From: Desulfovibrio desulfuricans
GTDB taxonomy: Bacteria > Desulfobacterota > Desulfovibrionia > Desulfovibrionales > Desulfovibrionaceae
Length of the DNA: 64,000 nucleotides
NCBI RefSeq assembly: GCF_004801255.1
Contig: NZ_CP036295.1
Coordinates: 867,001 to 931,000, forward strand
Reading direction: 5' to 3'
A program made the position numbers and the translations under genes. The notes under the pieces are model-generated. The model saw only the letters and a program-made list of their open reading frames with translations, was not told where the DNA came from and searched no databases. Positions 21,953 through 34,658 of the stretch are shown in pieces. Position 1 is the stretch's first letter. The number at the start of each line of letters is the position of its first letter.

Positions 21953-22627
21953 ATGAAGTTGTTCCGCCGTGTTTTTCTGTTGCCGCTGGTGCTGTTGCTG
22001 GGCGGGCTGGGTGCCGCCTGCGTTACCTCCGGCCCGCAGAAGGCCCTCAACGATGTGGCTGACGCCCTCAGTAAAAATGACGGCGCGGCTTTTTTGGCGC
22101 AACTGGACATGAAGCCTTTTGCAACCAACCAGATTAAAAACATGACTCATGAAGATCAGGCCCTTAATGCGCTGGATTCCATGGGGCGCATGCTTGGGCT
22201 GGGCGGTATGGAAGATCTGCTGGGCAGCGTGGTGGATATGCAGGCCCGGCTGCAGAAGCAGTATATGCGCGGCGTGAGCACTGGCGAGCTGGTGGCGCAG
22301 TGCTCCAAGGCTGATACCCCCGATTGCCCGTGGGTTCCCGAAAGCCTGAAAAACGCCCAAATTACCGAGCTTGGCGACGATGCCGCCGTGGCGCAGGTTA
22401 CTACGCCTGCCCGCATGACAAGCTGGCTTGCCCTGCGCAAGACGGGCGAAAAGTGGCTTGTGGTGGGCCAGGCTGTGATGGAGAGCACGGCCCGCGAGTA
22501 TGCGGTGCAGAAGGCTCCTGCGGTGCCGGCCAAGCCTGCGCCGGTGACGCCCACGCCGAGGGAAGCGCCGGAAACGACCCCCGTGCCGGGAAATCGCGCC
22601 GACAATCAGGGTGTAAGCAAGATATAG
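21953..22627 (+). CDS. Putative lipoprotein of unknown function
   Basis: A 224-residue exported protein. The N-terminus (KLFRRVFLLPLVLLLGG, then LGAAC) is a lipoprotein signal with the lipid-bearing cysteine at about residue 23. The mature part is helical at first, then a beta-rich region, and ends in a 40-residue proline-rich tail. The start of the mature part (SGPQKALNDVADALSKNDGA) recalls small-domain proteins with a NTF2-like or DUF2939-like pattern, but I cannot assign a family. GCGAGG precedes the start. It is followed directly by the first repeat array. Confidence 0.7.
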   Translation: MKLFRRVFLLPLVLLLGGLGAACVTSGPQKALNDVADALSKNDGAAFLAQLDMKPFATNQIKNMTHEDQALNALDSMGRMLGLGGMEDLLGSVVDMQARLQKQYMRGVSTGELVAQCSKADTPDCPWVPESLKNAQITELGDDAAVAQVTTPARMTSWLALRKTGEKWLVVGQAVMESTAREYAVQKAPAVPAKPAPVTPTPREAPETTPVPGNRADNQGVSKI

Positions 22628-22670
22628 GGCGTGCAGCAAGAGGTCTCTGGAAAATATTTCGTTTTGTCGG

Positions 22671-23743
22671 GGTGGGTGAGCCCGTCGGGCTGATTTACGC
22701 AAACCCGACTTTTTCGGCCTGAGCTGCGTTAAAATCCTGTTTTTGATGCTCACGTACATGAGTACGCTGCGCTCAAAGACAGGATTTTTCCTTGTCAGGC
22801 CGAAAAATGCGTATTTTGCAAATAACCCAACACCAGCCATCGCCTTCGCATTCGCTCCGGCGAGTATAAGGAAGGCGGCGCGACGACCTGCTTTTGATGG
22901 CGAGTATCTTTCTTAACTTGCCAGCTATACGCCTCATTTTGTTTGGACTGGGTGCAGGCCGGGGTAAATATCCGTGGGCAGAGGGTAGAAAAAGACTGCG
23001 GAAGGCAGGGGAGCGGCGTCAGCGGGGTGGGTGAGCCCGTCGGGCCGATTTACGCAAACCCGACTTTTTGGGCCTGAGCTGCGTTAAAATCCTGTTTTTG
23101 ATGCTCACGTACACGAGTACGCTGCGCTCAAAAACAGGATTTTTCCTTGTCAGACCGAAAAATGCGTATTTTGCAAATAGCCCAACAGCAGCCATCGCCT
23201 TCGCATTCGCTGCGGCGAGTATAAGGAAGGCGGCGCGACGACCTGCTTTTGATAGCGAATGAATTTTTCTAACTTGCCAGCTATACGCCTCATTTTGTTT
23301 GGCCTGGGTGCAGGTCGGAGCAAATATCTGTGGGCAGAGGGTAGAAAAAGACTGAGGAAGGCTGGGGAGCGGCGTCAGCGGGGTGTGTAAGCCCGTCGGG
23401 CCGATTTACGCAAACCCGACTTTTTGGGCCTGAGCTGCGTTAAAATCCTGTTTTTGATGCTCACGTACACGAGTACGCTGCGCTCAAAAACAGGATTTTT
23501 CCTTGTCAGGCCGAAAAATGCGTATTTTGCAAATAGCCCAACACCAGCCATCGCCTTCGCATTCGCTCCGGCGAGTATAAGGAAGGCGACCCGACGACCT
23601 GCTTTTGATGGCGAATGAATTTTTCTAACTTGCCAGCTATACGCCTCATTTTGTTTGGACTGGGTGCAGGCCGGGGCAAATATCCGTGGGCAGATGGTAG
23701 AAAAAGACTGAGGAAGGCAGGGGAGCGGCGTCAGCGGCGGGGT
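22671..23743. repeat. Repeat array A1: three ~356-bp units
   Basis: Three tandem, nearly identical units at 22671-23025, 23026-23381 and 23382-23738. Each begins GGTGGGTGAGCCCG or close to it. In each, bases +39 to +136 form a long imperfect palindrome: TTTTTCGGCCTGA outside, AAAATCCTGTTTTTGA inside, and CGTAC / GTACG around a four-base loop (unit 1: 22710-22807). A second stem-loop follows, CGCCTTC / GAAGGCG (unit 1: 22841-22877). Short open frames inside the units recur in all copies but lack ribosome sites. Four related units lie at 31658-33010. Confidence 0.9.
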
Positions 23744-23870
23744 GCTATGCCAGTGCCGAAATTATTTACGCAATGTTAGTTGTAGGTACGCAGATAAAAC
23801 TCCAACACAAGACCATGAGTGTCAGGTGAGGGTACAAACCGCCCCATCCTCAAGTATTTTGTTTATCGTT

Positions 23871-24121
23871 GGTATTCGGCTGAAGCGGACGTTGACCAGA
23901 GCGAAAGCAGGGTATGGCATTACGCGTCGCGGAGGGAGATCACCCGATGGAGCGTGGCGAGAGAGGGAAGCTCCCGCAGCAGAAGACGCGTGCCCTCGTC
24001 GTTTGGCGGCAATTGAAAACGCTCTTTAGGGGGTGCTTCGGGGGGGATGCAAGGGGGGCCGCGCAGGGGGCGCAGCCCCATAACCGGCCCCGCCTTGCCG
24101 CGCGCCGCGCAGGCGTCCCAA
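23871..24121. repeat. Dispersed repeat element B, copy 1
   Basis: About 250 bp, beginning GGTATTCGGCTGAAGCGG, nearly identical to 33231-33481 in the same orientation. It has no supported gene. The 127 bp before it (23744-23870) do not match the corresponding spacer in the second locus. Confidence 0.88.
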
Positions 24122-24343
24122 ACTTTGCCGGAGGGCGAAAAATTCGTGCCCGGAGGGCGGCAAAAATTAATCAGTCCGCGCCGCGCAGGCGTCCCAACTT
24201 CGCCGGAAGGCGAAAAATCCGTGCCCGAAGGGCGGCAAAAGTTAATCAGTCCGCGCCGCGCAGGCGTCCCAACTTCGCCGGAGGGCGAAACACCGTGCCC
24301 GAAGGGCGGCAAAAGTTAATCAGCCCGCGCCGCGCAGGCGTCC
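24101..24343. repeat. Tandem repeat C, ~75-bp units
   Basis: Units starting CGCGCCGCGCAGGCGTCCC begin at 24101, 24177, 24252 and 24326 (periods 76, 75, 74); the last is cut off two bases before the hflX stop. Each holds GCCGGAGGGCGAAAAA, CCCGAAGGGCGGCAAAA and TTAATCAG. The second locus has a degenerate version at 33461-33672. Confidence 0.88.
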
Positions 24344-25993
24344 CTAATTCAACACTGTCGGCGTATCCGTCGCCACCAGACTGGCCGGATGCCGCAGCAG
24401 CAACAGTTCAAGCTCGTCCAGCAGGGCCTTGCAGCCGTCGCCCGTCCTGGCGGAGATGGTCAGCGCGTGTGGAAACGCGTCCGCAAGCTCCGCGCGGGCC
24501 GGGGCTTCCAGCTGATCCCACTTGTTCAGAATCATCAGCCGGGGCATGCGGTCCAGTTCCATTTCGGCCAGAATGGTCTCCACAGCGCTTATCTGCTGCA
24601 GCAGATCCGGGTGCGACGCGTCGGCCACATGCAGCAAAAGGTCCGCCGCCTCCAGTTCTTCAAGTGTGGCGCGGAAGGCGTCCATGAGTTCCTTGGGCAG
24701 ATTGCGGATAAAGCCGACCGTATCGGCCATGATGATTTCTTTTTCCGCAGGAAAGCGCAGCCGCCGTGTGGTGGGGTCGAGTGTGGCAAAAAGTTTGTTT
24801 TCGGCCAGCACTTCGGAGCGGGTAAGCGTGTTGAGCAGAGTAGATTTGCCCGCATTGGTGTAGCCCACAAGCGCGGCCAGCGGTATGCCCTGGCGTGACC
24901 GGCGCGCGCGGGTGAACGAGCGCTGGCGGCGCAGCTGGTCGAGCTCTTTGCGAATACGGGCCATGCGCTCGCGTATTTTGCGGCGGTCGGTTTCGAGCTT
25001 TGTTTCGCCGGGGCCACGCCCGCCGATGCCGCCCATAAGACGGTCCATGGCGCGGTTTTTTCCCACCAGGCGCGGCTGGGTGTAGCGCAGCTGGGCCAGC
25101 TCGACCTGCAGCTTGCCCGCGCGGCTCACCGCATGCTGGGCAAAAATATCAAGAATCAACTGGGTGCGGTCAATGACCTTGCGCTCGGTGATGTCGGCGA
25201 GGTTGTGCAGCTGTGCGGGCGAAAGCTCGCCGTCAAACACCATCATGCCCGCGCGGCCTTGCAGGGCCAGCACTTCAAGCTCGGCCACCTTGCCCTTGCC
25301 CATGATCAGGCGCGGGTTGATCTGCGCCACGCGCTGCACCATGCGTCCGGCAATGGTCAGACCAGCGGTGCGGGCCAGCTCCGCCAGTTCGTCCAGATTG
25401 CGCTCCTGAATGATGCGCGGCTGCGTGCTTACCGAGACGAGCATGGCGCGCGGCGTGTCGTCGGCCTCGCGGGCGTCCTCGGCCTTGCGGGCCAGCTCTT
25501 CTTCCAGGGCTTCAGCCGTGGCGACAAACTGCGATTCTGTGCGGTCCCAGGGTTGCGGGGCGTCCATGTGATAGGGCTGCCCGCCGGAGGGCGACGGCAG
25601 CAAGTGGGCGGCCTGCCATTGCACTGGTTCGCCCACCGGGTTGACGGTGAGCGCAACCACTGCGTCCAGCCGCAAAAAGAGCATGTCCATCAGGTCTTCC
25701 TGACTGATGCCGCCAGGCGAGAGGTGGGTGTGCAACAGACGCAGACCGCGCAGGCGTTCCTGCCCGCTGCGGCCGCGCGGCAACTCGGGTATCATGATGC
25801 TGCCTGCTTCGCCCACAATAACCATCTGCACCCGGCCTTTGCGGTCGATAAGCAGCCCTAGCTGCCTGCCCAGTGCGCGTGAAAGCAGCGAGAGTTCCCG
25901 CGCCTGATCGACTGTATAGACTTCTGCCGCCGGAAAACGGCGGTTGAACAACCGGGTGAGTGCTGCAAGCTGGCTCGGTTTGAGCCCTTGCAC
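24344..25993 (-). CDS. hflX: GTPase HflX
   Basis: A 549-residue ribosome-associated GTPase that splits or rescues stalled 70S ribosomes. The N-terminal 150 residues (GLKPSQLAALTRLFNRRFP...) are the extra domain found in long HflX proteins; the HflX domain proper starts near SVSTQPRIIQERNLDELAELA, the linker has GGIGGRGPGETKLETDRR, and the G domain has VGYTNAGKSTLLNTL (G1), DTVGFI (G3) and NKWD (G4). The GTG at 25993 is preferred because GAAGG lies just before it. A TTG at 26071 is open but falls inside a strong hairpin. Confidence 0.92.
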   Translation of the reverse strand: MQGLKPSQLAALTRLFNRRFPAAEVYTVDQARELSLLSRALGRQLGLLIDRKGRVQMVIVGEAGSIMIPELPRGRSGQERLRGLRLLHTHLSPGGISQEDLMDMLFLRLDAVVALTVNPVGEPVQWQAAHLLPSPSGGQPYHMDAPQPWDRTESQFVATAEALEEELARKAEDAREADDTPRAMLVSVSTQPRIIQERNLDELAELARTAGLTIAGRMVQRVAQINPRLIMGKGKVAELEVLALQGRAGMMVFDGELSPAQLHNLADITERKVIDRTQLILDIFAQHAVSRAGKLQVELAQLRYTQPRLVGKNRAMDRLMGGIGGRGPGETKLETDRRKIRERMARIRKELDQLRRQRSFTRARRSRQGIPLAALVGYTNAGKSTLLNTLTRSEVLAENKLFATLDPTTRRLRFPAEKEIIMADTVGFIRNLPKELMDAFRATLEELEAADLLLHVADASHPDLLQQISAVETILAEMELDRMPRLMILNKWDQLEAPARAELADAFPHALTISARTGDGCKALLDELELLLLRHPASLVATDTPTVLN

Positions 25994-26047
25994 GTTGCCT
26001 TCTGGTTTTGGGATGGGATGCTCCTGAAGGAAAAGAAAAGTTGAGTC

Positions 26048-26089
26048 GCACCCGCAGCCATGGCTCCCCAAGGGGGCGGCTGCGGGTGC
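26048..26089 (-). terminator. Hairpin between IMP cyclohydrolase and hflX
   Basis: A perfect 12-bp stem, GCACCCGCAGCC (26048-26059) with GGCTGCGGGTGC (26078-26089), continued inward by further pairing. On the minus strand it is followed by a T-rich stretch (CAACTTTTCTTTTCC). It lies 33 bp after the upstream stop and 54 bp before the hflX GTG, so it may terminate or attenuate transcription into hflX. Confidence 0.65.
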
Positions 26090-26121
26090 GCAAATGGTAT
26101 GGTCAGCGGGGGCCGCGCAGC

Positions 26122-26709
26122 CTAGGGCCGCAGATACGAGGTGATCAGGGCGTCGTAGCGCGAGGTGGCCTCGAAGGCGCGCGATGCCATGATCTGGCGG
26201 AATTCAAGCCCCACGGTGGTGTCTTTTTCCAGCTCTTCCATGGCGGCGGTGTACCACTGCGGCGAGGGCAGCACCAAAACGCTGTGGAAGTTTTTGGCCG
26301 CGGCGCGCAGCATGCAGGGGCCGCCGATGTCAATTTCTTCCACGGCCTGCTCAAGCGACAGGTGGCGTTCCACCGCGCCGGCAAAGTCGTAAAGATTGAC
26401 GCAGACAAGGTCAAAGGGGCGGATGCCCTTTTCCGTCAGGGTCTGCATGTGTTGGGGCTCGTCCTTGTTGGCCAGAATGCCCGCGTGAATTTTGGGGTGC
26501 AGGGTTTTGACCCGGCCGCCCAGAATTTCGGGAAATCCCGTTACGGTGCTCACTGCGGTGACGGGCAGACCGGCCGCCTCAAGGGCCTTCTGTGTGCCGC
26601 CGGTAGAGATCAGCTCTACCCCCCGCGAGGTAAGAAACGTGGCAAACTCCACAAGGCCGCTCTTGTCCGTAACGCTCAAGATGGCGCGACGAATGGGCAA
26701 AATATCCAT
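26122..26709 (-). CDS. IMP cyclohydrolase (PurH N-terminal MGS-like domain only)
   Basis: A 195-residue cytoplasmic enzyme that would close FAICAR to IMP, the last step of purine synthesis. It is the methylglyoxal-synthase-like half of PurH: RRAILSVTDKSGLVEFATFL, ISTGGTQKALEAAGL, GGRVKTLHPKIHAGIL and EIDIGGPCMLRAAAKN are conserved PurH sequence. The protein ends where the ~310-residue AICAR formyltransferase domain of bifunctional PurH would start. The other activity must be encoded elsewhere. AGGAG precedes the start. Confidence 0.9.
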   Translation of the reverse strand: MDILPIRRAILSVTDKSGLVEFATFLTSRGVELISTGGTQKALEAAGLPVTAVSTVTGFPEILGGRVKTLHPKIHAGILANKDEPQHMQTLTEKGIRPFDLVCVNLYDFAGAVERHLSLEQAVEEIDIGGPCMLRAAAKNFHSVLVLPSPQWYTAAMEELEKDTTVGLEFRQIMASRAFEATSRYDALITSYLRP

Positions 26710-26870
26710 AAGCGACTCCTTGAAAAATGTCCAAAATAGGGTTTGGCGGCGTACATACGCCGTATTTCTTATAACGCAAAAAGCCCGTTCTGGCAATGCG
26801 TTGCGGGCAAAACAGTCCCGCGCCCCTTGCCCGCGTCAAAATGCAAGGCTATGCTGCGCCAGGAGGCACT

Positions 26871-27677
26871 ATGCAGCTCAAGCTTGTTTCATGGAATGTC
26901 AATGGCCTGCGCGCTGTGGCGGGCAAGCCCGAATGGCAGTGGTTTGCGCAAACCGACGCGCAGGTTGTAGCCCTGCAGGAAACCAAGGCCCACCCCGACC
27001 AGTTGAGCGAAGACGTGCGCGAGCCTGAAGGCTGGGAATCGCACTGGTCGTGGAGCACGGTAAAAAAGGGCTATTCGGGCGTGGCGGTATTCAGCAAGGT
27101 TCCGTCGCTGAACGCCAGCATAGAGCTGCCGCAGCCGGAATATCAGGGCGAGGGGCGTCTGCTGCATCTGGAGTATCCGCAGTTTCACTTTTTCAACGGA
27201 TACTTTCCCAACGGCGGCGCAGAAGAGCTGGATGATAATGGCAAGCCCACGGGCCGGTTCAAGCGCGTGCCGTACAAGATGGGATTTTTCGAGGCCTTTT
27301 TGGCCTATGCGGAAGAATGCCGCAAAAGCAAACCCATTGTGGTCTGCGGCGACTTTAACATCGCTCACCGTCCCATTGACCTTGCCCGGCCCAAGCAGAA
27401 CGAAAAATATACGGGCTTTTTGCCCGAAGAGCGGGCCTTTCTGGACCGGTTTACGGCTATGGGCTATGTGGATACCTTTCGTCATGTGCACGGCGAGGCC
27501 GAGGGCAACTACTCGTGGTGGTCGTACAAAAGCCGCGCGCGCGAAAAAAATATCGGGTGGCGCATAGACTATTTTTTTGTATCACAAGAGCTTGTGCCTG
27601 CGGTGCGCGACGCCTGGATTGAAAATAACGTCTTTGGCTCCGACCACTGCCCTGTGGGGCTGTGCCTGGAGTTTTAG
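26871..27677 (+). CDS. xth: Exodeoxyribonuclease III
   Basis: A 268-residue DNA-repair enzyme of the endonuclease/exonuclease/phosphatase superfamily, acting at abasic sites. The pattern is complete: SWNVNGLRA (metal), LQETKAHPDQL (catalytic Glu), YSGVAVFSK, GDFNIAHRPIDL (Asp/Asn), RIDYFFVS and SDHCPVG (catalytic Asp-His). Length is normal. AGGAGG lies 5 nt before the ATG. Divergent from the IMP cyclohydrolase gene. Confidence 0.96.
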   Translation: MQLKLVSWNVNGLRAVAGKPEWQWFAQTDAQVVALQETKAHPDQLSEDVREPEGWESHWSWSTVKKGYSGVAVFSKVPSLNASIELPQPEYQGEGRLLHLEYPQFHFFNGYFPNGGAEELDDNGKPTGRFKRVPYKMGFFEAFLAYAEECRKSKPIVVCGDFNIAHRPIDLARPKQNEKYTGFLPEERAFLDRFTAMGYVDTFRHVHGEAEGNYSWWSYKSRAREKNIGWRIDYFFVSQELVPAVRDAWIENNVFGSDHCPVGLCLEF

Positions 27678-27708
27678 CGGGTGCGACGGCAACCGCCCTT
27701 GCAGACAG

Positions 27709-27768
27709 AAAAAACCCGCTTTGTCCCCGCAGGCGACGCATGAACGCCTGGGGGTAAAGCGGGTTTTT
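27709..27768. terminator. Bidirectional terminator
   Basis: A long stem pairs AAAACCCGCTTT with AAAGCGGGTTTT and continues inward through CGCAGGCG / CGCCTG. A-tract and T-tract flank it, so it can serve xth (+) and the small ORF at 27800 (-). Confidence 0.9.
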
Positions 27769-27799
27769 ATACTGCGCAGACCGCAATATGGAAAAGCGA

Positions 27800-28129
27800 C
27801 TAATCGAGCAGGCCGAGCAGACGCGCGACGCGCTGTTCATTCAGGCCGGTATGTACCTGAATGAGATCCTGACTGTGCTGCACGGCCTCCTGCTCGACCT
27901 GGGCGAGCGCCTGGCGCATTTCGTCAGAGTTGAGCATGTGCGGGGTTCCGGGGACTGTCTGCTCCAGAACCGGCGCAGCCGAAGTGCCGGCCTCGTCGTC
28001 GGCGGGAGCCGCCGGTGCCGCAGGCGTGCTCTCCGCCCGGTTTACGGGCAGCATTGCGTTGACCCTTTCCTGAAATGTGGGAAAAACCGGCCCCAGATCA
28101 TTATTGCGAAAACGGAATTCCAGTTCCAT
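27800..28129 (-). CDS. Small protein of unknown function
   Basis: A 109-residue soluble protein with no recognisable family. The N-terminal 30 residues (MELEFRFRNNDLGPVFPTFQ) are mixed, residues 31-55 are rich in Ala, Pro and Thr, and the C-terminal 45 residues are likely one amphipathic helix (MRQALAQVEQEAVQHSQDLI). AGGAG lies 7 nt before the ATG, and the gene is followed by a good terminator, so it is probably real. No function is proposed. Confidence 0.7.
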   Translation of the reverse strand: MELEFRFRNNDLGPVFPTFQERVNAMLPVNRAESTPAAPAAPADDEAGTSAAPVLEQTVPGTPHMLNSDEMRQALAQVEQEAVQHSQDLIQVHTGLNEQRVARLLGLLD

Positions 28130-28288
28130 CGGGCATCTCCTCGGGCTTGACGCATCGGGGCGTCATTACACTCGCGCCAAGCGCGCTTCGGTCATGTGGA
28201 AAAATTGACCGCCTGTTGGTATTGCCCGAAAATATGCAAAAAGCAGACCGTTCGTTATGTGCCGTCTGTGGCTACACGTGCCGCAGCG

Positions 28289-29383
28289 CTATTCCATCAC
28301 CTTGACCAGCAGGCCCGGCGCAAGGCGCACCTGGCCGTCCACCACAATGTGTTCGCCCTCGGCCACTTCGCCGTCCAGCACTGTGCGGTCGGCATGTTCA
28401 AACAGGGGTCTGACCTTGCGGTAGCTGGCGCGGCTGTCTTTATCAACCACGTAAACGTAAGATTCTTCGCGGCCAGACTGCACGGCTCTGGTCGGCACGG
28501 TCAAAGCGCCCACGGCCACGCCCAGGGGCAGCTCGACCTGCACAAATTGCCCCGGCCACAGGCGGCGCAGCTCGTTGGTAAAGGTGGCGCGCAGGCGGAT
28601 GGTGCCGGTGCGGGTGTCTACCGTGTTGTCCACCAGGGTGAGGAGGCCTTTTTCGGGTTTGCCGCCCGCCGGGGTAGCGGAAACCTGCACATTGCCCTGG
28701 CCCATCTGCTCGATGATCACGGGCAGATGCGACTCTGGCACAGAAAAGCTCACATAAATGGGCGAAAGCGTATCGATGGTGACGATAACCGTGGCGTCGC
28801 CCGATTTAACCATGTTGCCCCTATCCACGCTCAGCGCGCCCACGCGCCCGCTGATGGGGGCCACTACCTTGCAGTAGCTGAGGTCAAGGGCGGCGCTCTC
28901 GACGCTGGCCTTGTCAGATTGCACCGTAGCCCGCAAGGCTGCGGCGTCGGTAACTGTTTTTTCATAGGCGTCGCGGCTTACGTAGCCGTTGCCCACAAGC
29001 TTGCCGTAGCGGTTCATGTCGTCCAGAGCCTTGGCAAGCTGCGCCTGCGACTTGGCCAGCTGGCCCTTTTTTTCGCGCAGGGCGGCTTCAAAGGGGCGGG
29101 GGTCGATGGTGATAAGGGGGTCGCCCTCGTGCACGTCCTGACCTTCAGTAAAGTGCACCTGCTGTATCTCGCCGGTAACACGCGGCTTTACGCCAACAGA
29201 ACCAGAGGCGCGCACGTTGCCCACGGCGTGCAGCAGGCGGGGCACGTCGGCGCGCGTGATGGATTCCACCCGCACTGGCGCGGGTGGAGGGGTATTTTTT
29301 TTGCTGTCGTCTTGTGAACATGCGGCCAGCAAGAGCAGCAGAACCAGCGGGACGAGGGGCAATGCGTTGTGGATTGGCTTCAT
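28289..29383 (-). CDS. RND efflux adaptor (MexA/AcrA-type periplasmic lipoprotein)
   Basis: A 364-residue membrane-fusion protein. The signal ends at the lipobox LLLLLAAC, then VRVESITRADVPRLLHAVGN begins the mature part. The lipoyl-like halves (EGQDVHEGDPLITID and CKVVAPISGRVGALSVDRG) flank an alpha-hairpin (about residues 100-165), followed by a beta-barrel domain with GQFVQVELPLG. Such adaptors link an RND pump to a TolC-type channel. GGGGAG precedes the start. No pump or outer-membrane factor lies nearby, so its partner must be elsewhere. Confidence 0.9.
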   Translation of the reverse strand: MKPIHNALPLVPLVLLLLLAACSQDDSKKNTPPPAPVRVESITRADVPRLLHAVGNVRASGSVGVKPRVTGEIQQVHFTEGQDVHEGDPLITIDPRPFEAALREKKGQLAKSQAQLAKALDDMNRYGKLVGNGYVSRDAYEKTVTDAAALRATVQSDKASVESAALDLSYCKVVAPISGRVGALSVDRGNMVKSGDATVIVTIDTLSPIYVSFSVPESHLPVIIEQMGQGNVQVSATPAGGKPEKGLLTLVDNTVDTRTGTIRLRATFTNELRRLWPGQFVQVELPLGVAVGALTVPTRAVQSGREESYVYVVDKDSRASYRKVRPLFEHADRTVLDGEVAEGEHIVVDGQVRLAPGLLVKVME

Positions 29384-29518
29384 GGGACTCCCCACAAGAT
29401 AGAAACGGCCTTGGCGCGACATTGAATGCAAGTGCGACCGTGAATCAAGCCCCACGCCGCGTCAAGCAGATTGTTAGCTATGCACTTATATCTGCGTTTA
29501 TCCCCCCTTTGGCAACGA

Positions 29519-29546
29519 TTGACATTCGGCACGGTCACGGCATAAT
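29519..29546 (+). promoter_or_regulatory. Promoter for speA
   Basis: TTGACA (29519-29524), 16 bp, CATAAT (29541-29546), about 120 bp before the speA start. A short hairpin GGCCTG / CAGGCC lies in the leader at 29607-29621. Confidence 0.55.
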
Positions 29547-29667
29547 TACGCCGCATTTTTCGGGCAATCCTCTGTTGTCGTTTTTTTGAACGGCGGCAGC
29601 TTCAGCGGCCTGTCTCAGGCCCGGATCAACCATATATATGCGCCAGCGGCGCTTACAGGAGCAGGAA

Positions 29668-31584
29668 TTGGCAAAAAACCGCGCATTACAGCAGTGGCGG
29701 GTGGAGGATTCCATCGAGCTTTACGGCATCCGTAATTGGGGCGCCGGGTATTTTGACGTGTCGGATGCGGGCGAGGTCGTGATTTGCCCGCAGGGGCCCA
29801 AGGGGCCGCAGGTTTCGATACCAGACGTTATCGCCGGGCTGAAAGAGCGCGGGTATGATATGCCCGTGCTCTTGCGCGTGGAGAATATTCTGGATTCGCG
29901 CATTGCCAATATTCACGAATCGTTCCGCAAGGCCATCAAAAGCCTCAACTACACCGGTTCGTACCGGGGTGTTTTTCCCATCAAGGTCAACCAGCAGCAG
30001 CAGGTTGTGGAAAAAATAGCCCAGTTCGGCTCCACATACCACCACGGGCTTGAGGTCGGCTCCAAGGCCGAGCTCATCGCGGCAGTGTCGCTCATGCGCG
30101 ACCGCGAGGCCTGCATCGTCTGCAACGGCTACAAGGACGAAGAATTTATCGATCTTGGCCTGCAGGCCCTGCGCCTTGGCTTTAACGTGCTGTTTGTTCT
30201 TGAAATGCCCAGCGAGCTGGAAGTGGTGCTCGCGCGCAGCAAGGCCCTGGGCGTACGCCCCAACATTGGCGTGCGCGCCAAGCTGGCCGTGAAGGCCAGC
30301 GGCCACTGGACCGATTCTGGCGGCGAGCGCTCCACCTTTGGCCTGTCGCCCGCCCAGATTGTGGACGTGGTGGACACGCTCAAGGCCAACGACATGCTCG
30401 ACTGCTTCAAGCTGCTGCACTACCACCTTGGTTCGCAGGTTTCCAACATTCGCGACATCCGTACAGGCGTCATGGAAGGCGCGCGCCTTTACGTGGGTCT
30501 GGTGCAGGAAGGCGCGCCCATGGGGTATCTTGACCTTGGCGGCGGTCTGGCGGTGGACTACGACGGCTCGCACACCAACTATGTTTCGTCGCGCAACTAT
30601 ACGCTCGACGAATACAGCGCCGACATTGTCGAAGCCATCATGAGCATCCTTGACGAGCAGAATGTGGCGCATCCGCACATCATCACCGAATCGGGCCGCG
30701 CCACTGTGGCCTATTATTCCGTGCTGCTCTTCAACGTGCTTGACGTCAGCATGGTGGAAGAAGTGCAACTGCCCGACAACCTGCCCGAGGGCACGCCCGA
30801 GCCTGTGCTGAACCTGCGCGAAACTCTTGCCAACATTACCCTGCGCAATCTGCAGGAATGTTATAACGACGCCATCTACTACCGCGACGAAATGCGTCAG
30901 CTCTTTTCCACCGGGCGCGTAAATCTGCGCCAGCGTACCCTGGCCGAGCGGTTTTTCTGGGCCATCATCATGCGCATTGCACAGGAAAAGACGCGCCTCA
31001 AGACGATACCCCGCGACCTCGCCGATATTGATGTGAGCCTTGCGGATATTTATTACGGCAATTTCAGCGTGTTCCAGTCGTTGCCCGACTCGTGGGCCAT
31101 TGACCAGCTGTTCCCGGTTATGCCCGTGCACCGGCTTAAGGAATTTCCTTCGCGGCAGGGCATCATCTCTGACATCACCTGCGACTCTGATGGCCGCATC
31201 GACCATTTTATCGATCCTCAGGGCATGAAGCCCACGCTTGATCTGCACCCCGTGCGCGACGGCGAAGAGTATTATCTTGGCGTGTTTCTTGTCGGCGCGT
31301 ATCAGGAAACGCTGGGCGATCTGCACAACCTTATGGGCGACACCAACGTGGTGTCCATCAGGGTGCGCGACGACGGCAATTACGAGTATGTGCGCGAAAT
31401 CAGGGGCGACTCTGTGGCGGATATACTGAGTTATGTGGAATACGAGCCGCGTCGCATCCTCGAAGATCTGCGCAGCACAGCGGAGCAGGCCGTGAGGCAG
31501 GGGCGTATTTCGCCCAGCGACCGGTTTGCCATTATGCAGGTATTTGAAGACGGCCTGCGCGGGTACACCTATTTTGAACGGTAG
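29668..31584 (+). CDS. speA: Biosynthetic arginine decarboxylase
   Basis: A 638-residue PLP enzyme making agmatine from arginine, the first step of putrescine synthesis. The barrel domain shows FPIKVNQQQQVVEK, whose lysine (K106) binds PLP, LEVGSKAELIAAVSL, and HYHLGSQVSNIRDI; the second domain carries DSWAIDQLFPVMPVHRL and ITCDSDGRIDHFID. The start TTG at 29668 (MAKNRALQQW) is preferred because ACAGGAG lies just before it; an ATG ten codons upstream (29638) is possible. It is followed by the second repeat locus. Confidence 0.94.
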   Translation: MAKNRALQQWRVEDSIELYGIRNWGAGYFDVSDAGEVVICPQGPKGPQVSIPDVIAGLKERGYDMPVLLRVENILDSRIANIHESFRKAIKSLNYTGSYRGVFPIKVNQQQQVVEKIAQFGSTYHHGLEVGSKAELIAAVSLMRDREACIVCNGYKDEEFIDLGLQALRLGFNVLFVLEMPSELEVVLARSKALGVRPNIGVRAKLAVKASGHWTDSGGERSTFGLSPAQIVDVVDTLKANDMLDCFKLLHYHLGSQVSNIRDIRTGVMEGARLYVGLVQEGAPMGYLDLGGGLAVDYDGSHTNYVSSRNYTLDEYSADIVEAIMSILDEQNVAHPHIITESGRATVAYYSVLLFNVLDVSMVEEVQLPDNLPEGTPEPVLNLRETLANITLRNLQECYNDAIYYRDEMRQLFSTGRVNLRQRTLAERFFWAIIMRIAQEKTRLKTIPRDLADIDVSLADIYYGNFSVFQSLPDSWAIDQLFPVMPVHRLKEFPSRQGIISDITCDSDGRIDHFIDPQGMKPTLDLHPVRDGEEYYLGVFLVGAYQETLGDLHNLMGDTNVVSIRVRDDGNYEYVREIRGDSVADILSYVEYEPRRILEDLRSTAEQAVRQGRISPSDRFAIMQVFEDGLRGYTYFER

Positions 31585-31600
31585 GGCTGCGCGGCGTAGC

Positions 31601-33010
31601 TAGTTTGGTAGAATATGGCAGGCACGGCTGAGAAAAGGCCGGGGAGCGTCATCGGCGGGTGGGTGAGCCCGTCGGGCTGATTTACGCAAACCCGACTTTT
31701 TGGGCCTGACTGCGTTAGAATCCTGTTTTTGATGCTCACGTACATGAGTACGCTGCGCTCAAAAACAGGATTTTTCCTTGTCAGGCCGAAAAATGCGTAT
31801 TTTGCAAATAGCCCAACACCAGCCATCGCCTTCGCGTTGCTCCGGCGAGTATAAGGAAGGCGGCGCGACGACCTGCTTTTGATGGCGAACGAATTTTTCT
31901 AACTTGCCAGTTCCCCGCTGCTCATGGTTGAGCTGGGTGCAGGCCGGGGCAAATATCTGTGGGCAGATGGTAGAAAAAGACTGAGAAAGGGCAGGGAGAG
32001 CGTCATCAGCGGGTGTGTGAGCCCGTCGGGCCGATTTACGCAAACCCGACTTTTTTGGCCTGAACTGCGTTAAAATCCTGTTTTTGATGCTCACGTACAT
32101 GAGTACGCTGCGCTCAAGAACAGGATTTTTCCTTGTCAGGCCGAAAAATGCGTATTTTGCAAATAGCCCAACACCAGCCATCGCCTTCGCATTCGCTCCG
32201 GCGAGTATAAGGAAGGCGGCGCGACGGCCTGCTTTTGGTGGCGAACGAATTTTTCTAACGTGCCAGTTACCCGTTGCTTATGGTTGGACTGGGTGCAGGC
32301 CGGGGCAAATATCCGTGGGCAGATGGTAGAAAAAGACTGAGAAAGGGCAGGGAGAGCGTCATCAGCGGGTGTGTGAGCCCGTCGGGCTGATTTACGCAAA
32401 CCCGACTTTTTCGGCCTGAGCTGCGTTAAAATCCTGTTTTTGATGCTCACGTACATGAGTACGCTGCGCTCAAAGACAGGATTTTTCCTTGTCAGGCCGG
32501 AAAAATGCGTATTTTGCAAATAGCCCAACACCAGCCATCGCCTTCGCATTCGCTGCGGCGAGTATAAGGAAGGCGACCCGACGGCCTGCTTTTGGTGGCG
32601 AACGAATTTTTCTAACGTGCCAGTTACCCGTTGCTTATGGTTGGACTGGGTGCAGGCCGGGGCAAATATCCGTGGGCAGATGGTAGAAAAAGACTGAGGA
32701 AGGCCGGAGAGCGTCAGCGGCGGGGTGGGTGAGCCCGTCGGGCCGATTTACGCAAACCCGACTTTTTTGGCCTGAGCTGCGTTAAAATCCTGTTTTTGAT
32801 GCTCACGTACATGAGTACGCTGCGCTCAAAGACAGGATTTTTCCTTGTCAGGCCGAAAAATGCGTATTTTGCAAATAGCCCAACAGCAGCCATCGCCTTC
32901 GCATTCGCTGCGGCGAGTATAAGGAAGGCGACCCGACGGCCTGCTTTTGGTGGCGAGCATCTTTTTTAACTTGCCAGTTACCTGCTGCTTATGGTTGAGC
33001 TGGGTGCAGC
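31601..33010. repeat. Repeat array A2: four ~356-bp units plus a partial one
   Basis: Units start at 31658, 32012, 32368 and 32724; the last breaks off near 33010. A partial tail unit (31601-31657) precedes the first. They match array A1 (22671) in the same orientation, with the same palindrome at +39 to +136. Units 32012, 32368 and 32724 carry A-to-G changes in the 3' arm of the inner stem that keep G-U pairing in a plus-strand RNA. It begins 17 bp past the speA stop. Confidence 0.9.
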
Positions 33011-33230
33011 GAGAGTGGGAAAAGTCAAATTACTGCAGAAAAGGGTAGAGAGTCTTGCAGCGTGGGTGTCTCCGTCGGTTTGATTTGGGTTGGGCTGCGG
33101 GTAGCCGCGAGAGAGGTGCATGCCGCGTAGCTTTTTGCTCGTCGCTTGAAGATATATGTGTGACGCTAGAACGTAAAATGGAAGGGGCGGAGGGGGCGAA
33201 GCATTATTCTCAACCCGCCACTGCACCAAT
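33011..33230. other. Spacer with a degenerate unit-like start
   Basis: No gene. GGGTAGAGAGTCTTGCAG, then a GTGGGTGTCTCCGTCGG stretch, resembles the junction between two A units but is degraded. The rest has no match to the first locus's spacer. Confidence 0.4.
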
Positions 33231-33481
33231 GGTATTCGGCTGAAGCGGACTTTGATCAGAGCGGAAGCAGGGTATGGCATTACGCGTCGCGGAGGGAGAT
33301 CACCCGATGGAGCGTAGCGAGTAAGGGAAGCTCCCGCAGCAGAAGACGCGTGCCCTCGTCGTTTGGCGGCAATTGAAAACGCTCTTTAGGGGGTGCTTCG
33401 GGGGGGATGCAAGGGGGGCCGCGCAGGGGGCGTAGCCCCATAACCGGCCCCGCCTTGCCGCGCGCCGCGCAGGCGTCCCAA
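33231..33481. repeat. Dispersed repeat element B, copy 2
   Basis: Nearly identical to 23871-24121, offset by 9360 bp and in the same orientation. It contains GCAGCAGAAGACGCGTGCCC and a G-rich stretch. No supported gene. Confidence 0.88.
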
Positions 33482-33672
33482 CTTCGCCGGAGGGCGAAAA
33501 ATGCCGTGCCCGAAGGGCGGCAAAAATTAATCAGCCCGCGCCGCGCAGGCGTCACTTCACCATTCAGACGAAATCGCGCGCCGCGCAGGCGTCCCAATCG
33601 CCTGTTAGGCGAAAAATGCCGTGCCCGCAGGACAGCAAATTCTAGTTAACCCCGCGCCGCGCAGGCGCAAAT
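33461..33672. repeat. Tandem repeat C, degenerate
   Basis: CGCGCCGCGCAGGCG recurs at 33461, 33537, about 33577 and 33652, with one shortened unit lacking the middle. It ends 8 bp before the stop of the OppF-like gene. Confidence 0.8.
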
Positions 33673-33680
33673 CCCAGTCC

Positions 33681-34658
33681 CTACGCCAACCAACACCTCA
33701 CCCGCCAGCCGGAGCCAAGCTCCTTCCACTGCGGGGCTTCATGGCGACAAATATCCTGAGCCTTGGGGCAGCGCGGATGAAAACGGCAACCCGCGGGCGG
33801 CGCGAGGGGGCTTGGCAGCTCGCCTTCCAGAGCGGGAATGAGCTCGCCGCGCCGTTTGCCTGTGGGCATGGCTGCCATGAGGGCCTGCGTGTAGGGGTGG
33901 CCCGCGCCGTCAAAGATGGCTTCGGTGGGGCCTTCTTCCACGATTTGTCCCAGATACATGACCAGAATATGGCGGCACAAAAAGCCCACCACCGCGAGAT
34001 CATGCGAGATAAAGAGATAGGCGGGGCCAAAGTGCTCCTGCACGTCGCGCAGCAGGTTGAGGGTCTGCGCCTGCACAGAGGCATCAAGGGCGGAGACCGG
34101 CTCGTCGCATACAACAACGTCGGGCCGGGTGATGAGGGCCCGGGCCACGGCTATGCGCTGGCGCTGGCCGCCCGAAAATTCGTGAGGGTACCGGTTGCCC
34201 ATGCCCGCAAGGCCCACGGTCGCCAGCATGTCCTCGGCCTTGGCAGTGCGCTCTGCACGGGGGATGTTGCGGGCTGCCAGAGGTTCCGCCACCGAGCTGC
34301 CCACAGAGAGGCGGGGATTGAGGGAGGAAAAAGGATCCTGAAAGACCATCTGTATGCGCCCGGCTGCCCAGCTGTCGGCCCCGGCCGGAGGCAGGGGGCG
34401 GCCGTCAAGCAGCACCTGCCCCTGCGAGGGGGTCAGCAGGCCGCAGGCCATCCGTCCAAGTGTGGATTTGCCGCAGCCAGATTCGCCCACAAGGCCGAGG
34501 CTTGCGCCCTTGGCGAGGCTCAGGCTTACGTGGTCAACGGCGACAAGCGAACTCCTGTCGCCAAACAGACCGCGCTTGATGTCAAACACGCGCGAAACGT
34601 CCTCCAGCCGCAGCAGGACGGGGGCAGAAGATTGTTCCGGCGCAGGTTGGTTCAGCAT
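33681..34658 (-). CDS. Oligopeptide/dipeptide ABC transporter ATP-binding protein (DppF/OppF type)
   Basis: A 325-residue ABC ATPase. Walker [10 protein letters not shown] is at residues 58-66, VFQDPFSSLNPR holds the Q-loop, then FSGGQRQR, VVCDEPVSALD and ISHDLAVV. The C-terminal extension with CRFHPRCPKAQDIC is typical of the oligopeptide family. It would pair with a DppD-type ATPase, but the only one in the window is 27 kb away (5739). Its start overlaps the end of cobT by 7 bp, so the two are translationally coupled. Confidence 0.9.
   Translation of the reverse strand: MLNQPAPEQSSAPVLLRLEDVSRVFDIKRGLFGDRSSLVAVDHVSLSLAKGASLGLVGESGCGKSTLGRMACGLLTPSQGQVLLDGRPLPPAGADSWAAGRIQMVFQDPFSSLNPRLSVGSSVAEPLAARNIPRAERTAKAEDMLATVGLAGMGNRYPHEFSGGQRQRIAVARALITRPDVVVCDEPVSALDASVQAQTLNLLRDVQEHFGPAYLFISHDLAVVGFLCRHILVMYLGQIVEEGPTEAIFDGAGHPYTQALMAAMPTGKRRGELIPALEGELPSPLAPPAGCRFHPRCPKAQDICRHEAPQWKELGSGWRVRCWLA

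Follow-up and report, generated by a model that had tools for sequence, protein, structure and literature searches.

Among the oldest known bacterial repeats are the ERIC sequences of enterobacteria, which are used in strain typing and for which an RNase is the proposed recognition factor. The BOX elements of Streptococcus pneumoniae are composites of modules with repeatable parts, a likeness in general plan to the arrays described here. The enterobacterial repetitive intergenic consensus (ERIC, also designated IRU or RU-1) is 127 bp long (PMC2759123; PMC2229807), and for Yersinia it has been reported that co-transcribed ERIC copies alter how stable the upstream mRNA is, with an effect that depends on their orientation (De Gregorio 2005, as cited in PMC2229807).

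The window analysed here is a stretch of 64,000 nucleotides from a genome of the genus Desulfovibrio that consists of one contig of 3,251,440 bp (3.25 Mb). It contains two composite repeat loci (Table 1), and the order A-spacer-B-C, the shared orientation and the spacers given in the preliminary description hold at both, as does the convergence of the two flanking gene pairs, the lipoprotein-like gene with hflX and speA with the oppF-like gene. The B modules of the two loci (compared over 23870-24120 and 33230-33480) are 97% identical. The suggestion that the repeats end within 2-8 bp of a stop codon applies to the C1 end at hflX alone (about 2 bp); the other ends are 13-44 bp away, with C2 ending 13 bp from the stop of the oppF-like gene and the A1 and A2 arrays starting about 40 bp (up to 44) past the stops of the upstream genes. 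Long open frames that cross A and C are a by-product of the repeats and were not counted as genes.

Table 1. Modules, ERIC-like hairpins and flanking genes of the two loci, in window positions; R1 and R2 are the covariance models described in the text
Feature	Position	Strand	Evidence
Lipoprotein-like gene (no Pfam match), upstream of locus 1	21953..22627	+	
A1, 3.0 tandem copies of the 356-bp module A	22668..23744	+	TRF
ERIC-like hairpin, A1 copy 1	22708..22810	+	R1 100 bits, R2 87 bits
ERIC-like hairpin, A1 copy 2	23063..23165	+	covariance models R1/R2
ERIC-like hairpin, A1 copy 3	23419..23521	+	covariance models R1/R2
Spacer A1-B1, ~125 bp	23745..23869	+	sequence
B1, ~230-bp module; hairpin ending ..CCTTGCC and four conserved G-runs	23870..24100	+	
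C1, 3.3 tandem ~75-bp units of short hairpins, adjoining the hflX stop	24101..24344	+	TRF
hflX, convergent, downstream of locus 1	24344..25951	-	
speA (arginine decarboxylase), upstream of locus 2	29638..31584	+	
A2, 3.9 tandem copies of module A	31628..33009	+	TRF
ERIC-like hairpin, A2 copy 1	31695..31796	+	R1 107.8 bits
ERIC-like hairpin, A2 copy 2	32049..32151	+	covariance models R1/R2
ERIC-like hairpin, A2 copy 3	32405..32507	+	covariance models R1/R2
ERIC-like hairpin, A2 copy 4	32761..32863	+	covariance models R1/R2
Spacer A2-B2, ~220 bp	33010..33229	+	sequence
B2 module	33230..33460	+	
C2, about two C units, short insert in one	33461..33667	+	
OppF-like ABC ATPase gene, convergent, downstream of locus 2	33681..34658	-	

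Across the genome, A-B-C arrays are found at eight loci, 496k, 799k, 890k (locus 1), 899k (locus 2), 1191k, 2371k, 2475k and 2737k, where the whole-genome matches to A and B have E-values of about 1e-50 or lower, which rules out chance. Remnants or solo hairpins are present at 824k, 1838k, 2038k and 2039k. All three rRNA operons carry an array 3' of the 5S gene and terminator (a 5S search returned exactly three 5S genes), and these arrays sit about 280 bp behind the strong intrinsic terminator. The five remaining arrays are located at the 3' ends of protein-coding genes; array lengths are 1.5-3 kb. Convergent gaps harbour four of these five non-rRNA arrays, compared with 18% of all gaps >100 bp being convergent (p = 0.004). 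The idea that the element targets convergent gaps is thus upheld as a strong preference and not as a rule, since three arrays, the one at 799k and two of those behind rRNA operons, are found in tandem gaps.

Module A forms one large hairpin (-58 kcal/mol, z = -8.7) with a core of about 102 nt, fixed unpaired boxes GCGTT and CCTTG, a fixed tip and covarying stems. An exact search of GTDB genomes with the tip returned sequences from Desulfovibrio, Nitratidesulfovibrio, several Pseudomonas, a Rhizobium and uncultured proteobacteria; in the alignment of these matches the invariant boxes GCGT(T) and CCTT(G) lie outside the searched string, and compensatory change is seen at 21 of the 32 pairs. When 107 distinct hairpins were fitted to the model, 95.3% of cells were paired and 791 were compensatory, compared with 250 in shuffles, and the compensatory signal of this alignment is far above that of slid controls. 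For 20 divergent hairpins the corresponding values are 88.8% paired and 176 compensatory cells, with 56 in shuffles. The covariance model R1 gave 58-59 matches in each of three Pseudomonas genomes, 22-46 in Nitratidesulfovibrio-like genomes, some of which are reverse-strand echoes of one palindrome, and at least one match in 56 of 200 Pseudomonadota genomes. There are 102 G-U cells against 38 A-C cells, an excess that gives a hint of the sense strand from cells that are non-independent events and are clustered at a few pairs in Pseudomonas. An Rfam E-value scan of the window loci gave no match at the gathering score, and further Rfam scans returned only rRNA and one unrelated C4 RNA; P26 (RF00630), with 21.6 bits on the opposite strand, was dropped because it falls below the gathering score. 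Also present in the genome is a subfamily of diverged hairpins that share these boxes but have a different tip, at 456k, 3024k, 2097k and 2168k (L323-L326), positioned 6-19 bp past a leuD-like gene, polA and one more gene, with tandem dimers at 2097k and 2168k.

Comparison of module A with the published ERIC/RU-1 sequence (PMC2759123) revealed the same boxes and a similar tip. Shared between the two are the 5' box GCTGCGTT, the tip CAC(T/G)TAC..GTA(A/C)GCT, the 3' box CGCCTTGC and the outer stem, and both are intergenic and multi-copy. The E. coli ERIC copy that we examined, located between the convergent genes psuT and yeiL (L327, 3021-3108), is the best match to R1 in 6 kb (14.6 bits, E = 0.013). 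A second covariance model, R2, consists of intermediate Pseudomonadota hairpins gathered by R1 and includes no ERIC and no Desulfovibrio sequence; in the same E. coli sequence ERIC is its only significant match, with 23.1 bits (E = 2e-5), the next best having E = 2.4, and in the window it finds all seven A hairpins at 84-91 bits. Judged by these matches, module A is ERIC-type, the E. coli scores being modest and the members of R2 having come through R1. B and C are Desulfovibrio-family additions on its 3' side.

The placement of the hairpin was also examined in other bacteria. Of 48 hairpins in two Pseudomonas genomes, 40 lie behind a same-strand gene (expected 48%, p = 4e-7), and tandem gaps show a same-direction bias of 16 to 5 (p = 0.027). 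These hairpins (L234-L273) fall into two distance classes, most being 10-22 bp past the stop and the rest 46-83 bp, the latter usually with a canonical intrinsic terminator immediately before them. Three other genomes, G281, G293 and G249, contain near-identical copies of about 146 bp with unique flanks (L302-L320), which points to recent spread; 8 of 19 copies lie ≤5 bp from a stop codon, in either orientation, and orientation is without bias toward the upstream gene. In these bacteria the hairpin is a mobile element that settles at gene ends. The proposal that the whole composite is the relic of a transposable unit is supported for module A, on account of its likeness to ERIC and the near-identical dispersed copies in other bacteria. 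An autonomous partner of the ~146-bp copies was not found in G281, G293 or G249. A plasmid search with the G281 and Pseudomonas hairpins returned no match and a search of viral contigs with the tip returned two contigs only, so that there is no sign of a plasmid or phage carrier. Many of the copies in these three genomes abut or supply the stop codon, and one tandem pair is present in L310.

Related genomes reveal the history of the composite. The modules A, B and C occur in the same order and orientation at 35 loci in five genomes (G000, G100, G201, G160 and G086), and other composite arrays, for example those of the rRNA operons, deviate only by repeated A and C modules; A and B are also present in G013. 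At nearly all A-B-C loci a same-strand gene faces the 5' end of the element, and with this constancy of order the initial view, that a single evolved element sits at 3' ends, is borne out. Four species carry the element at orthologous sites next to the lipoprotein/hflX and speA/oppF pairs, an NtrC-type regulator and a LuxR-type regulator, and a gatA-like site is common to three species. In the three other species with the element at the same site, the flanking proteins are 98.7-98.9% (SpeA) and 96.6-97.4% (HflX) identical. Sites in related genomes mostly have one copy of A, compared with two to four here, and in trees of B and A much of the material from this genome groups by genome and not by site, with loci 1 and 2, the arrays at 799k and 2475k, and the three rRNA arrays forming groups. 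Together, these observations show that the orthologous sites are inherited and therefore old, that A and C have recently multiplied locally in tandem, and that the copies have been homogenised within the genome. The element is missing from most species of the genus. The arrays at 799k (L047) and 2475k (L051) lie at near-equal distances from the origin on opposite arms and have almost identical B and A modules, as recombination between inverted repeats would give.

Promoter and intrinsic-terminator scans of both loci detected no more sites than in shuffles, and a stricter terminator scan detected none in the two arrays; the suggested action as a standard intrinsic terminator with a GC-rich stem and a U-tract is not supported. 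In the hflX gap, a clear stem-loop terminator is present in four of seven relatives that are without the element (three by scan and one, L155, by eye) and in none of the element-bearing genomes; this contrast is weak because, among 42 ordinary convergent gaps, the scan scores no more than 13. The reading that we prefer, to which we assign a probability of about 0.6, is that an ERIC-like mobile hairpin has been turned into a fixed, structured 3'-end element. Module A would have originated as a once-spreading, non-autonomous mobile ERIC-type short palindromic repeat, and the lineage-specific modules B and C would have become joined 3' of its hairpin. Transcripts that pass the stop codon would fold into large strand-specific hairpins, and the structured 3' end might then protect or process the upstream RNA, and the element might stop transcription from entering the convergent neighbour; by analogy with ERIC in Yersinia we infer a role of this kind, in 3'-end stability or as a block to read-through. 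A conserved factor, which might be an RNase, would probably recognise the unpaired boxes and the tip. Against this reading, given that the rRNA arrays and the second Pseudomonas class lie behind intrinsic terminators, many copies should be little transcribed. A more far-reaching version, which we advance tentatively and regard as doubtful, would place ERIC as a single branch within a superfamily of bacterial 3'-end hairpins, strand-specific and extending to the Desulfobacterota. In Desulfovibrio it would have become part of a composite boundary element, oriented with replication, that closes rRNA operons and convergent transcription units, and a conserved host factor would read this element through the tip and the GCGTT/CCTTG boxes.

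The main rival to the preferred reading is a purely selfish or neutral ERIC-like repeat with no host function, which survives only where it is harmless, past stops and terminators, and in which copying and recombination maintain order and structure. The near-identical dispersed copies in G281, G293 and G249 with their closeness to stops in both orientations speak for it, as do the grouping of copies by genome and the absence of the element from most species of the genus; selection for mobility could, moreover, be an alternative source of the compensatory changes in module A. We nevertheless consider neutrality somewhat unlikely, in view of the retention of the same sites in up to four species, the strict order and orientation of the modules, the same-direction bias in Pseudomonas tandem gaps and the persistence of the hairpin structure despite sequence drift.

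Two further explanations place the function elsewhere than in the 3' end of a transcript. The element might act at the DNA level and read with replication, for example as a site for gyrase or a nucleoid protein, where the supercoiling that lies between convergent or strongly transcribed units is relieved. The contig starts with genes that we take to be dnaA (at position 151), dnaN, gyrB and gyrA, and the GC skew, sampled along the genome, switches sign near 1.6 Mb. On this basis all eight full arrays are oriented with replication (p = 0.007 at a leading-strand gene share of 0.535), which, together with the occupancy of every rRNA operon and the length of the arrays, speaks for a chromosomal element. 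However, the three rRNA arrays take the orientation of their operons, so that only five arrays are informative (p = 0.044 at the same leading share), the solo hairpins are divided 4 to 4 with and against replication (the contrast between arrays and solo hairpins being non-significant, p = 0.08) and 30 of 48 Pseudomonas hairpins are oriented with replication, no clear bias. The polarity of the arrays is a hint, suggestive only, and we judge this explanation improbable. Even less probable in our estimation is an independent function of module B, as a structured RNA or a G-quadruplex element, with A and C as its passengers. B is highly alike between species, its 3' hairpin shows paired changes from GCAAGG/CCTTGC to GCAGAG/CTCTGC, and it occurs without A in G017 (59 matches, L139-L151) and G021 (L132-L138), in what looks like an independent expansion. 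Four G-runs are kept in nearly all copies and could form a G-quadruplex on the sense strand, yet single B copies are no more stably folded than their shuffles (z about -0.5 to -0.7), and no promoter-like site or Rfam match accompanies them in the scans described above. In the window the G-runs read GGGGG, GGGGGGG, GGGGGG and GGGGG, at 24030-24085 and 33390-33445, and the B modules of G017 and G021 are often arranged as inverted pairs, with GCAGAG/CTCTGC as a second variant.

Like REP/BIME and the RAYT-associated REPINs, the element is a palindromic repeat outside genes that is found at 3' ends and between convergent genes (PMC3733652). A REP unit, however, measures 20-40 bp and carries a GTAG or CGTC tag, whereas the core of the module A hairpin has 102 nt. 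RAYT, the Y1 transposase, is ruled out as the mover here by the absence of PF01797 matches in G000, G017, G100 and G160. The repeat R178 of Pseudomonas fluorescens, listed in Table 3 of PMC2718517 as 101 bp long with internal inverted repeats and 9-28 copies per genome, may be the Pseudomonas form of the module A hairpin, a comparison by description only. Under the terms searched, the literature yielded no publication that describes this hairpin beyond enterobacteria and vibrios, and string searches with the tip, the boxes and the G281 ends returned only unrelated primers and the like. Against ERIC itself, the inner stem of module A is longer and its tip is usually CACGTAC. The single long imperfect palindrome of ERIC (~127 bp) has its counterpart in the ~146-bp copies of G281, G293 and G249, whereas the Desulfovibrio palindrome (~102-130 nt) forms part of a tandemly repeated unit of 356 bp, to which B and C are joined; likewise, the TA termini of ERIC are found as TAGGG..CCCTA on most G281 and G293 copies, and the Desulfovibrio tandem arrays are without recognisable ends. 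With its fixed positions at orthologous 3' ends and behind every rRNA operon, the composite of Desulfovibrio offers a natural case of a repeat possibly taken into service. The occurrence of the same hairpin in Pseudomonas, Nitratidesulfovibrio, Desulfovibrio and many other Pseudomonadota provides a deep comparative data set with which to test what is conserved across lineages and therefore what may be recognised. A repeat regarded as enterobacterial, ERIC, thus belongs to a family that reaches far beyond enterobacteria and vibrios and occurs far more widely in bacteria.
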